DNA of 64,000 nt. Origin: Nocardioides humi (lineage in GTDB: Bacteria; Actinomycetota; Actinomycetes; Propionibacteriales; Nocardioidaceae). Both the position numbers and the translations under genes were made by a program. The stretch covers positions 1 to 64,000 of the forward strand of contig NZ_CP041146.1 in NCBI RefSeq assembly GCF_006494775.1, written 5' to 3'. Positions 18,503-21,743 of the stretch are shown piece after piece. The notes beneath the pieces were generated by a model. It saw nothing but the letters and a program-made list of their open reading frames with translations, did not search any database and was not told where the DNA came from. Every line of letters starts with the position of its first letter. The stretch's first letter is position 1.

Positions 18503-19741
18503 GTGCAGCACCAGTCGTTCGTCGCGCGCAACCGGCTCGCCGCGCGCCTCCGCGAGGCCGTCGCGGCCTGGCCCGATCCCCTGTCCACCCCGGTCTTCGT
18601 CGTCGACCTCGACGCCTTCGACGCCAACGCCGCCGACCTGGCCCGTCGAGCCGCCGGGACGCCGATCCGGGTCGCGTCGAAGTCCGTGCGGATCCCGTCG
18701 CTCGTCGGCCGGGCGCTGGCCGCCGACGGCTTCGCCGGGGTGCTGGCCTACACGCTCGCCGAGGCGCTGTGGCTGGTCGAGCACGACGTGTGCGACGACA
18801 TCGTGGTCGCCTACCCGAGCGTGGACCGGGCGGCGCTCGCCGCGCTGGTCGCCTCGCCGCGGGCCGCGTCGCGGGTGACGATCATGGTCGACGACCCCGC
18901 CCACCTCGACCTCGTCGACAGCCTGCGGGCGTCGACCGCCGTGCCGGTGCGGGTGGCGCTCGACGTCGACGCCGGCCTGCGCTGGGGCGGGCAGGCGGTC
19001 GGGCCCAAGCGCTCCCCCCTGTACGACGTCGGTGCGGTCACCGCCCTCGCGCGCACCGTCGTCGACCGGCCGGGGTTCCACCTGGCCGGCGTGATGACCT
19101 ACGAGGGCCAGGTCGCCGGCGTACCGGACTCCGTGCCGAGCCGGCGGGCGAGGTCGGCGGTCGTCCGCAAGCTCAAGCAGCTCTCGGTCGCGCAGCTCGC
19201 GGTCCGTCGTACCGCCATCGGCGAGGCGCTGGACGCCCTGAAGGGGTACGGCGACTTCGCCGGGCTGGAGTTCTGGAACGCCGGCGGCTCGGGGTCGATC
19301 GAGTCCTCGGCCGCGGACCCCGTCGTCACCGAGGTGACCGCGGGCTCGGGGCTGCTGGCGCCGACCCTGTTCGACCACTACCAGGTCTTCTCCCCCACGC
19401 CGGCCGCGTTCTTCGGGCTGCCGGTGACCCGCCGCCCCTCAGCCGAGGTGGCCACCGTGCACGGCGGCGGGCTGATCGCGTCCGGCCCCGCCGGCGCGGA
19501 CCGCGCCCCCACACCGTGGGCGCCCGCCGGGCTGCACCTCACCGGGCTCGAGGGCGCCGGGGAGGTGCAGACGCCGCTGGTGGGCACCAACGCCGGCCGG
19601 CTGGCGATCGGCGACCTGGTGTGGTTCCGGCACGCGAAGTCGGGCGAGCCGTTCGAGCACGGGCGCAGCGTCCTGCTCCTCCAGGGCGAGCGCTTCGTCG
19701 AGGAGGTCCCGACCTACCGTGGCCACGGTCTCGCCTTCTGA
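18503..19741 (+). CDS. PLP-dependent alanine-racemase-fold enzyme (amino-acid deaminase/aldolase type)
   Basis: Protein of 412 residues. An N-terminal alanine racemase-like TIM barrel has the PLP lysine in IRVASKSVRIPSL. The C-terminal region (EFWNAGGSGSIE, VGTNAGRLAIGDLVWFRHAKSGEP) resembles D-threonine aldolase/D-amino-acid dehydratase. The likely chemistry is on a D-hydroxy amino acid, but the substrate is not known. GTG start at 18503. The 3' end overlaps the next gene by 23 bp, so the two are probably cotranscribed. Confidence 0.82.
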   Translation: MQHQSFVARNRLAARLREAVAAWPDPLSTPVFVVDLDAFDANAADLARRAAGTPIRVASKSVRIPSLVGRALAADGFAGVLAYTLAEALWLVEHDVCDDIVVAYPSVDRAALAALVASPRAASRVTIMVDDPAHLDLVDSLRASTAVPVRVALDVDAGLRWGGQAVGPKRSPLYDVGAVTALARTVVDRPGFHLAGVMTYEGQVAGVPDSVPSRRARSAVVRKLKQLSVAQLAVRRTAIGEALDALKGYGDFAGLEFWNAGGSGSIESSAADPVVTEVTAGSGLLAPTLFDHYQVFSPTPAAFFGLPVTRRPSAEVATVHGGGLIASGPAGADRAPTPWAPAGLHLTGLEGAGEVQTPLVGTNAGRLAIGDLVWFRHAKSGEPFEHGRSVLLLQGERFVEEVPTYRGHGLAF

Positions 19742-20261
19742 GGTCCTGGCCGCGGCGCTCTCCCGGCCACCGACGCTGGGCGGAGGCCGGCTGATCTGCG
19801 TCGACGGCCTGGCCGGCTCGGGCAAGACCACCCTGGCCCGGGCGCTGGGCGCGCTGGCGCCGGACGCCGTCGTCCTCGGCACCGACGAGATGCTGGAGGG
19901 CTGGCGCGGGCTGCCCGGCCTGGGCCGGTCGGTCGAGGCGCTGCTGCGGCCGCTGGCCGCCGGGCTGCCGGGACACTGGCGCCGCTGGGACTGGTACGCC
20001 GACGGCTGGGCCGAGACCCGGACGGTGCCGCCCGGCCCGCTGCTGGTCCTGGAGGGCGTCGGCAGCGCGGCCGCGGCGTACGACGACCTGGTGACGCTGC
20101 TGGTGTGGGTGGAGGCTCCCCGGGAGGTCCGGCTGGCGCGATGGCTGGCGCGCGACGGCGAGGACATGCGGCCGCACTGGGACGCCTGGCTGGCCGACGA
20201 GGAGGCGTTGCACGCGCAGGAGGACACCCGGGCGCGGGCGGACATCGTCATCCGCACCTGA
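19719..20261 (+). CDS. Uridine-kinase-like P-loop NTPase
   Basis: Protein of 180 residues with Walker A DGLAGSGKTTLARAL near residue 30, a TDEML acidic segment, and LLVLEGVGSA. This matches the AAA/uridine kinase-like family often named (d)CMP or uridine kinase; the substrate is unproven. GTG start at 19719 inside the end of the preceding gene. Ends 16 bp before the inverted-repeat element. Confidence 0.78.
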   Translation: MATVSPSEVLAAALSRPPTLGGGRLICVDGLAGSGKTTLARALGALAPDAVVLGTDEMLEGWRGLPGLGRSVEALLRPLAAGLPGHWRRWDWYADGWAETRTVPPGPLLVLEGVGSAAAAYDDLVTLLVWVEAPREVRLARWLARDGEDMRPHWDAWLADEEALHAQEDTRARADIVIRT

Positions 20262-20276: not shown

Positions 20277-20441
20277 CTAGTGTCCCGGACGCGAAATCCG
20301 TGCCATAAGTCGTGCTCCGAGTGCGTGCATCGCAAGGCGGCGTCGCGACGGCAGACCGGGCGTCTTTCGAGCGATGCCAACGCGGCGAGGTGCGTGCTCG
20401 GGGTGCGACTTATGGTGCGGATTTCAAGTTCGGGACACTAG
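20277..20441. mobile_element. 165-bp MITE-like inverted-repeat element with CGCT target duplication
   Basis: The ends are CTAGTGTCCC and GGGACACTAG. The outer 57 nt of each side (20277-20333 and 20385-20441) are imperfect inverted repeats: 44 Watson-Crick pairs, 10 G-U wobbles and 3 mismatches if folded as plus-strand RNA or ssDNA. CGCT flanks both sides (20273-20276 and 20442-20445), like a 4-bp target-site duplication. The 51-nt centre includes the palindrome CGTCGCGACG. No coding capacity. It lies between two convergent genes and supplies the TAG stop of the PH-domain gene. Confidence 0.7.
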
Positions 20442-20899
20442 CGCTGATGGGCGGCGACGACCGCGCGCAGCTCCCGGACGGCGGTGGCGGCGCGGGCGCC
20501 GTCGGAGCTGTGGATGCCGAGCAGTGAGATCCGGTCGTCCTCGCCCTGCTCGAGATGCGGCCAGGGGGCGCCCTGGGGCATCCGGACGGTGCCGACCTCG
20601 GACCAGGCCAGGCGGCGGGTGCGGTAGCCGTTGACGACGGTGAGGCCGTCCTCGCGGGCGATCACGCGGGAGCGGGCCAGGCCGTTGAGCAACGCCAGGC
20701 CGAGCAGGATGAAGAAGATCACGGTCGCCTTCTCCAGGTCGTTGACCGCGGCCTTCGTCTCCGGGTCGAACTGGATCCACAGCCACGCGAAGGCCCCGAC
20801 GAGGACCGTCCCGAAGACGGCGGCGGCCATCCGGGGACCGAAGGGCCGCCAGGTGCGGGGCAGGGAGGGCACGACGGGCTCGCTGTCGGGGGCGGCCAC
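20438..20899 (-). CDS. PH-domain-containing membrane protein
   Basis: Protein of 153 residues. Two hydrophobic segments (AAAVFGTVLVGAFAWLWIQF and TVIFFILLGLALLNGLA) are followed by a bacterial PH-like domain (VIAREDGLTVVNGYRTRRLAWSEV). This is the common actinobacterial PH membrane protein next to hisG/rib genes; role unknown. The GTG at 20899, one base after the hisG stop, is preferred to a GTG/ATG upstream inside hisG. The stop codon TAG is formed by the end of the repeat element. Confidence 0.8.
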   Translation of the reverse strand: MAAPDSEPVVPSLPRTWRPFGPRMAAAVFGTVLVGAFAWLWIQFDPETKAAVNDLEKATVIFFILLGLALLNGLARSRVIAREDGLTVVNGYRTRRLAWSEVGTVRMPQGAPWPHLEQGEDDRISLLGIHSSDGARAATAVRELRAVVAAHQR

Positions 20900-20900
20900 G

Positions 20901-21743
20901 TCAGAGCCGGCAGGCGTGGATGTCGGTGGTGAGGATCGCACGGGCGCCCAGCGCGAACAGCTCGTCCATGACCCGTTGGGCGGTGGCCCGCTGCACCATC
21001 GAGCGGACCGCGACCCAGCCCTCCCGATGAAGCGGGCTGACGGTGGGGCTCTCGATGCCGGGGGTGAGCGCGATCGCCTTCTCGACCTTCTCGGCGCGGA
21101 TGTCGTAGTCCATCATCACGTAGGCGCGGGCGACCAGGACGCCCTGCAGGCGGCGGGTGAAGACCTCGAGCGCGCTCTCGTCGGCGCCCTGGCGGGTGAT
21201 CATCACCGCCTCGGACTCGAGGATGACGTCCCCGAACACCTCCAGGCCGGCGTTGCGCAGGGTGGAGCCGGTCTCGACGACGTCGGCGATCACGTCGGCC
21301 ACGCCGAGCTGGATGCTCGTCTCGACCGCGCCGTCGAGGCGGACCACGGTCGCCTCGACGTCCTGCTCGGTGAGGAAGCGGCGCACCACGCCGTCGTACG
21401 ACGTGGCGATCCGCTTGCCGGCGAGGTCGCCCATGCCGGTGGCGGTGCCGGGTACCGCGGCGAAGCGGAACTTCGAGCGGCCGAAGCCGAGCTGGAGCGC
21501 CTCGGTGGCGGTCGCGTGGGAGTCGAGGAGCAGGTCGCGGCCGGTGATGCCGGCGTCGAGGGTGCCCTCGCCGACGTACAGCGCGATGTCGCGCGGACGC
21601 AGGTAGAAGAACTCGACGCCGTTGTCGGGGTCGATCTTGGTGAGCTGCTTGGAGTCCGAGCGCTGGGCGTAGCCCGCCTCGCGGAGCATGGTCGAGGCGG
21701 CCTCGGACAGGGCCCCCTTGTTGGGGACGGCGATCTTGAGCAT
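20901..21743 (-). CDS. hisG: ATP phosphoribosyltransferase (long form)
   Basis: First step of histidine synthesis: ATP + PRPP. The 280-residue length and the C-terminal regulatory ACT-like domain (GIESPTVSPLHREGWVAV) identify the long, histidine-inhibited HisGL. The PRPP site is in VADVIADVVETGSTLRNAGL. Starts 10 bp after hisE, with AGAGGAACCCC upstream. Belongs to the rib-his gene string. Confidence 0.96.
   Translation of the reverse strand: MLKIAVPNKGALSEAASTMLREAGYAQRSDSKQLTKIDPDNGVEFFYLRPRDIALYVGEGTLDAGITGRDLLLDSHATATEALQLGFGRSKFRFAAVPGTATGMGDLAGKRIATSYDGVVRRFLTEQDVEATVVRLDGAVETSIQLGVADVIADVVETGSTLRNAGLEVFGDVILESEAVMITRQGADESALEVFTRRLQGVLVARAYVMMDYDIRAEKVEKAIALTPGIESPTVSPLHREGWVAVRSMVQRATAQRVMDELFALGARAILTTDIHACRL

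Follow-up and report, generated by a model that had tools for sequence, protein, structure and literature searches.

Dispersed hairpin elements of a Nocardioides family are paired on one strand and oriented with respect to replication

The window analyzed here, a stretch of 64,000 nt from the Nocardioides humi genome, harbors between two predicted genes a hairpin element bounded by CTAG on both sides (Table 1). Counting CTAG as part of the inverted repeat, the arms (20277-20333 and 20385-20441) measure 57 nt each and enclose a 51-nt spacer, and recounting confirmed the coordinates, arm and center lengths and 13 arm differences that the initial annotation had reported for this repeat. That annotation described all ten transitions between the arms as pointing in one direction; ten transitions do yield G-U pairs on the plus strand, but an additional one, in the opposite direction, had been overlooked, the other two differences being transversions. 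The resulting bias, for which a chance of about 1 in 1000 had been put forward, has p = 0.012 (two-sided binomial) when recomputed for the window copy. The predicted fold of the element attains -120.5 kcal/mol (z -13.3) on the plus strand versus -86.4 kcal/mol (z -8.0) on the minus strand. Its central region is the conserved core common to other copies, and a 96% full-length copy lies at another site in the same genome. Of the 38 elements compared, between 34 and 37 retain each of the four G-U or U-G pairs of the GTGCGTGC pairing. The sequence CGCT, present at both flanks and originally taken for a target duplication, probably recurs there by chance; the repeated target in other copies is CTAG or CTNAG, and CTAG had been counted as internal to the element. 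The one-strand signal is weak in the window copy alone and very strong across the family.

Table 1. Features of the hairpin element and its surroundings, in window coordinates.
Feature	Coordinates	Strand	Remark
Whole hairpin element, CTAG to CTAG	20277..20441	+	165 nt; plus is the strand folding with G-U pairs
Left CTAG	20277..20280	.	insertion target of the hairpin family
Right CTAG	20438..20441	.	contains the TAG stop codon of the minus-strand gene 20438..20941
Left arm	20281..20333	+	
Right arm	20385..20437	+	pairs with the left arm; 10 G-U differences on the plus strand
Conserved core	20312..20407	+	end-to-end match to covariance model R1
GTGCGTGC, left half of the pairing with four conserved wobble pairs	20321..20328	+	
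GTGCGTGC, right half of the pairing with four conserved wobble pairs	20390..20397	+	
Conserved internal loop region, left side	20330..20339	+	TCGCAAGGCG
Conserved internal loop region, right side	20376..20388	+	GCCAACGCGGCGA
Apical stem-loop	20353..20365	+	
Neighboring predicted gene, upstream	19719..20261	+	context, outside the element
Neighboring predicted gene ending in the right CTAG	20438..20941	-	context; gene caller start at 20899

A DNA search of the N. humi genome (G000, 6.22 Mb in one contig) lists 46 matches to the element, a figure that includes reverse self-matches and split copies. The covariance model R1, which describes a 97-nt core and was built from 49 copies, identified at least 80 matches in this genome, dispelling the concern raised at the outset that no other copies might exist, and at least 198 across 13 genomes (E-value up to 0.01); these copy counts are lower bounds, with 150 candidates scored per genome. 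By this model, 8 of the 13 genomes carry hairpins and 5 are without any match, while similarity at the DNA level was detected in 25 of 58 genomes, N. humi included. The core pattern has 91 matching stretches in named genomes, and the 80 that are listed fall mostly in Nocardioides, the other taxa among them being Frankia sp. CIT1, Marmoricola, Streptosporangiaceae, Streptomyces and a few MAGs. Two partial core matches occur on plasmids, both from Streptomyces, and the core was not found in the phage sequences searched. Six matches to the end pattern in viral contigs each lacked a partner end and were judged to be chance occurrences, and a pattern combining ends and core, in which the spacer allowed may be too short, returned no match. 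Searching the window stretch and 13 loci against Rfam gave sub-threshold matches only, with nothing above a family's gathering score. Most elements are 160-170 nt long and share the core, with highly divergent outer arms; 103 of 108 lie outside predicted genes, and near-identical copies occur at unrelated sites. The hairpins thus present the terminal inverted repeats and high copy number of a MITE at a length (165 nt) too short for a transposase, and it is virtually certain that the feature in the window belongs to a large family that has been mobile. Dispersed structured repeats and MITEs as such are already well known; among open-licence PMC papers, no description was found of this hairpin family or of any replication-oriented hairpin MITE.

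The strand preference was quantified on the outer 50 nt of both arms in 104 distinct elements, using an alignment scoring that treats both transition directions equally. Differences giving G-U pairs on the plus strand number 817, against 101 giving them on the minus strand, alongside 3,822 matches, 373 transversions and 174 gaps; the elements had been selected by length (145-172) and by plus-strand energy below -90 kcal/mol, a selection that leans toward good plus-strand folders. Taken individually, 103 of the 104 elements lean toward the plus strand, so that the symmetric substitutions once considered for other copies are not what is seen, and the lone exception (L043), in which the other strand folds better, was probably mis-oriented by the script. 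As a control, 196 regions flanking the elements give 725 plus-strand versus 751 minus-strand G-U. Under DNA parameters, and with L043 turned, the plus strand folds better in all 104 elements (mean -56.4 versus -45.0 kcal/mol). In the 75 CTAG-ended elements the left and right ends consistently differ, and an ungapped comparison shows the G-U bias starting at base 7 of the ends, with plus:minus counts of 108:11 over bases 1-14 and 169:50, accompanied by 245 transversions, over bases 15-34. Two further totals (855:555 and 444:244) lean the same way and were set aside as evidence because the alignments overran the element into its flanks.

Covariation was assessed on 38 elements less than 85% alike, with the structure derived from that same alignment. 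Paired cells amount to 94.1%, versus 74.7% after shuffling, both sides have changed in 40 of 58 pairs, and the covariation score is 0.513, compared with 0.157 for shuffled data and at most 0.090 for slid partners. Strong compensatory change of the kind sought in functional structured RNAs is hence present, in agreement with the check that the initial annotation had proposed. Changes within subfamilies were counted in eight hand-picked subfamilies, where a double change may count twice and a shared change once per copy. At private positions, Watson-Crick pairs became G-U in 33 cases, A-C in 15 and transversion mismatches in 26; G-U pairs became Watson-Crick in 20 and were broken in 7; and double changes kept the pair in 36 cases and broke it in 9. 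The corresponding figures for shared positions are 18, 2 and 22, then 22 and 9, and finally 16 kept and 13 broken. Double-stranded terminal repeats would also covary, but without a preference for G-U over A-C. Because most pairs have changed on both sides and nearly all cells still pair, we conclude with high confidence that plus-strand pairing is under selection. For palindromic repeats, this distinguishes symmetry of the DNA from pairing of one strand, the latter being what selection keeps. The suggestion already made from the window copy, that the hairpin may be mobile and is selected to pair on the plus strand in RNA or ssDNA, is thereby supported by the additional copies, the family-wide strand bias and the compensatory changes.

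Elements are inserted at CTAG or, in one class, at CTNAG with exact duplication. The joined flanks of 11 insertions in genome G056 were compared with seven relatives, and CTAG stands at the empty site in 7 of the 21 alignments shown, covering five sites (L297, L302 and L308 for L233; L317 for L231; L299 and L304 for L240; L313 for L230); the remaining alignments show a near variant, a deletion, divergence or an unspanned junction. Exact CTNAG direct repeats border 9 of 108 elements (6 CTCAG, 2 CTGAG and 1 CTAAG), so that both the empty sites and the target duplications looked for in a MITE were found. A fixed orientation relative to the asymmetric target was considered and dropped, 6 CTCAG plus 1 CTAAG versus 2 CTGAG being too few to claim it. 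CTAG itself is strongly depleted in the N. humi genome, with 68 occurrences against about 990 expected in 400 kb (20 sampled stretches, L169-L188), and 20 of these 68 are predicted stop codons. Where CTAG flanks an element on both sides (34 elements), it supplies a neighbor's stop codon in 19.

Orientation with respect to replication, which the initial annotation had not foreseen, was determined by taking dnaA as the origin and the opposite point as the terminus. The plus strand is head-on to the fork in 121 of 148 listed matches from six genomes (p = 2e-15), with head-on:co-directional counts of 52:17 in G000, 25:5 in G025, 9:2 in G032, 11:0 in G045, 19:1 in G056 and 5:2 in G001; these 148 are drawn from the 198 matches, two other listed ones (in G027 and G012) being excluded. 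The 108 elements with sequence context divide into 88 head-on and 20 co-directional, and the bias persists where the neighboring genes converge or diverge (39:8), where they are tandem and run along the fork (34:9) and where they are tandem and run against it (9:2). Coding DNA in G000 is 60% co-directional with the fork, and elements with tandem-gene neighbors are opposite to them in 36 cases and in the same sense in 18. Orientation is set by replication, regardless of the direction of neighboring genes, a conclusion we hold with high confidence. The bias is similar at every level of nearest-copy similarity (47:11 at 90% or more, 26:6 at 80-90% and 15:3 at 70-80%), hairpin energies do not differ between the two orientations, and under a loose sorting by end type the counts are 18:3 for CTAGTG, 4:1 for CTAGTA, 12:4 for other CTAG, 16:2 for CTCAG-like and 38:10 for other ends. 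It probably arises at insertion and not through later loss. Counting against orientation by replication, no bias is apparent for G000 copies in the quarter of the chromosome nearest dnaA (7:7), GC skew is weak, and the CTAGGGC subfamily has 3 head-on versus 4 co-directional copies (post hoc p = 0.02). Beyond offering a testable prediction on how a small hairpin inserts, such orientation may naturally mark which way forks travel in some high-GC actinobacteria.

Searches for a partner enzyme concentrated on element ends and transposase families. The full-length transposase with ends matching the CTAGTG type of the window, proposed at the outset as something to look for, was found neither in G056 nor in N. 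soli (G058). The end-match search in G056 returned 19 CTAGTG ends, forming 8 pairs (seven of 167-168 bp and one of 86) and no longer partner. Of the three ends left unpaired, one belongs to a known element (L235) and one precedes core sequence, neither of which accounts for the third (L285). In N. soli, all 26 convergent pairs span 43-169 bp, again with no longer partner, and no partner lies within 3 kb of 22 end sites, 3 of which match exactly and 19 with a single mismatch. Since 9 of the 26 N. soli pairs, at just 43-85 nt, are short derivatives that lack the core (e.g. L328, L340, L354), the core may be dispensable for movement. A candidate full-length partner at L036 was rejected, its matching end being part of a 42-nt CTAG-to-CTAG remnant.

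A candidate autonomous element with similar ends is found for one subfamily only. The right end of an IS5-family element (L289) is identical at 21 of 22 bases to the left end of hairpin L209, and other hairpins of this subfamily, with CTAGGGC ends, match it at 14 to 19 bases where both ends are readable; the IS5 element itself resides in G013, a genome without a hairpin match. The target is also shared, as an N. soli hairpin (in L096) is followed by two IS5-family elements and each junction has one common CTAG. IS5 elements with PF13340 occur in 2 of the 8 carriers (G045, G056) and in 3 of the 5 non-carriers, and are absent from six carriers (G000, G001, G012, G025, G027, G032), a distribution that speaks against a simple pairing of host and partner; for this group, the transposase expected in carriers of an IS5-family MITE is therefore missing from most of them. 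The N. humi genome has no match to IS630 (PF13358), IS701 (PF13546) or Y1 (PF01797) transposases, and the 13 genomes yield one partial Y1 match, in G056. On these sequence comparisons, whether an IS5-type enzyme moves the element appears evenly balanced. As a separate observation, IS5-family elements in L096 (774-2725) and L354 (from 1549) abut the CTAG end of hairpins, sharing the CTAG, and hairpin ends may serve them as insertion hot spots.

The reading we prefer, with somewhat less than even confidence, is that the element is a mobile, non-autonomous hairpin whose target and ends are IS5-like, that it is recognized through its strand-specific fold and that it enters the chromosome at replication forks. 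An IS5-type transposase using CTAG/CTNAG would move the hairpin in trans, recognizing the folded plus strand instead of two double-stranded terminal repeats, a form of recognition suggested by the start of the G-U pattern at base 7. Recognition of this kind, combined with insertion at forks, is favored because G-U pairs reach the ends, end types agree in orientation and close copies are already biased. The plus strand would be inserted with the polarity of the nascent lagging strand, Okazaki discontinuities being one conceivable site, which would result in the head-on orientation observed, and G-U would be the sole type of change able to preserve the plus hairpin while weakening the minus hairpin exposed on the lagging-strand template. 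Counting against it, pair-breaking transversions are no rarity inside subfamilies (26 private, 22 shared position counts), and the shortest N. soli pairs lack the core. The enzyme and the intermediate, ssDNA or RNA, are what we infer here: a single-stranded intermediate of either kind is possible, though it falls well short of being probable, and the more specific route, in which a non-Y1 enzyme joins the element, mobile as one folded strand, into the nascent lagging strand at CTAG, and wobble pairs weaken folding on the exposed lagging-strand template, is rather unlikely. Were that route true, it would represent a mode of transposition outside the known Y1 systems. The main rival, which we regard as a serious if somewhat unlikely possibility, combines ordinary double-stranded cut-and-paste of an IS5-type MITE with selection of the plus hairpin at the RNA level, where it could, for instance, provide read-through transcripts with a 3' end or an insulating structure, and with rapid loss of wrong-way copies, whose strong hairpins on the lagging-strand template would be cut or deleted. 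It draws on the IS5-like target and, in one subfamily, ends, on CTAG serving as a neighbor's stop codon, and on the plus strand folding better under DNA parameters too; interrupted palindromes also form lagging-strand hairpins in E. coli, according to a review (PMC12708500). Against it, the bias is no weaker among close copies than among distant ones and hairpin strength does not differ between orientations, the G-U pattern extends into the ends, and use of the RNA in the sense of genes predicts co-orientation, whereas elements beside tandem genes are mostly opposite to them.

Fork direction can also be sensed by double-stranded transposition pathways, as in Tn7 with TnsE. An enzyme of this sort that distinguishes left from right ends, with one-strand pairing as a separate RNA or stability effect, would account for the consistent difference between the ends and for an orientation bias at every copy similarity tested, but the bias is common to elements with very different end sequences and the transposase family searches, in up to 13 genomes, revealed no such enzyme, which leaves it improbable. 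Strand-biased mutation, such as deamination of one strand, might produce the G-U pattern without selection, given that most copies have a fixed orientation to the fork; we consider it very improbable, as changes of both the C>T and the A>G type are seen, C>T is not in excess where sites are unpaired (private counts of 4 C>T versus 6 G>A), and the arms covary, with private double changes preserving the pair far more often than breaking it. Least probable of all is a dispersed, non-mobile regulatory RNA, which would fit the conserved core and the location outside predicted genes but conflicts with near-identical copies at unrelated sites, CTAG at empty sites, target duplications and the five genomes without a match.

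Parts of this organization are known from other systems. Integron attC sites are likewise inverted repeats with imperfect arms that function as a single folded strand of DNA, whereas the hairpins are dispersed single copies at CTAG. With IS5-family MITEs (NCBIfam NF033580 transpos_IS5_3; PF13340 with PF01609), the hairpins share CTAG junctions, the near-identical end, short length and many copies; they differ in full-length one-strand pairing, a conserved core and replication-set orientation and, for CTAGTG ends, in having no matching autonomous copy in G056 or N. soli. REP/REPIN sequences with RAYT (Y1) transposases are also dispersed, intergenic, non-autonomous hairpins, but measure 21-65 nt according to PMC6006769, compared to 165 nt here, where CTAG is the target and 12 of 13 genomes gave no Y1 match. 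IS200/IS605 elements have strand-specific hairpins and a link to the replication fork; the same paper describes known Y1 systems, these included, as acting on the lagging-strand template (PMC6006769), while the hairpin strand here is the other one in most listed matches and their enzyme family is lacking, apart from the partial match in G056. The bcr1-type repeats, bcr1 being listed in a 2008 survey (PMC2267715), resemble the hairpins in being mobile-looking, about 150-170 nt long and conserved in fold; the survey also states that the two strands of repeats usually adopt the same fold unless G-U pairs are essential to it.

Several copies depart from the common layout. Five in G000 (L047, L048, L201, L211, L223) join the same core to a second class of ends, of the CTCAG/AGCCTGAATCC type, and CTNAG duplications accompany part of the copies of this type. 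Four others in the same genome (L020, L024, L025, L026), with arms of three different types, resemble one another in bearing an additional hairpin, about 48 nt long, in the apical loop, as if subfamilies had swapped cores. In N. soli, a short hairpin (L326, G058:C1:42787) seemingly consists of the left end of one subfamily and the right end of another. Finally, L281 (G056:C1:5931432-5931517) is an 86-nt near-perfect palindrome. Each of its arms matches the same arm of a full-length hairpin such as the one in L283, giving it the appearance of a fold-back copy, and its minus strand folds slightly better.
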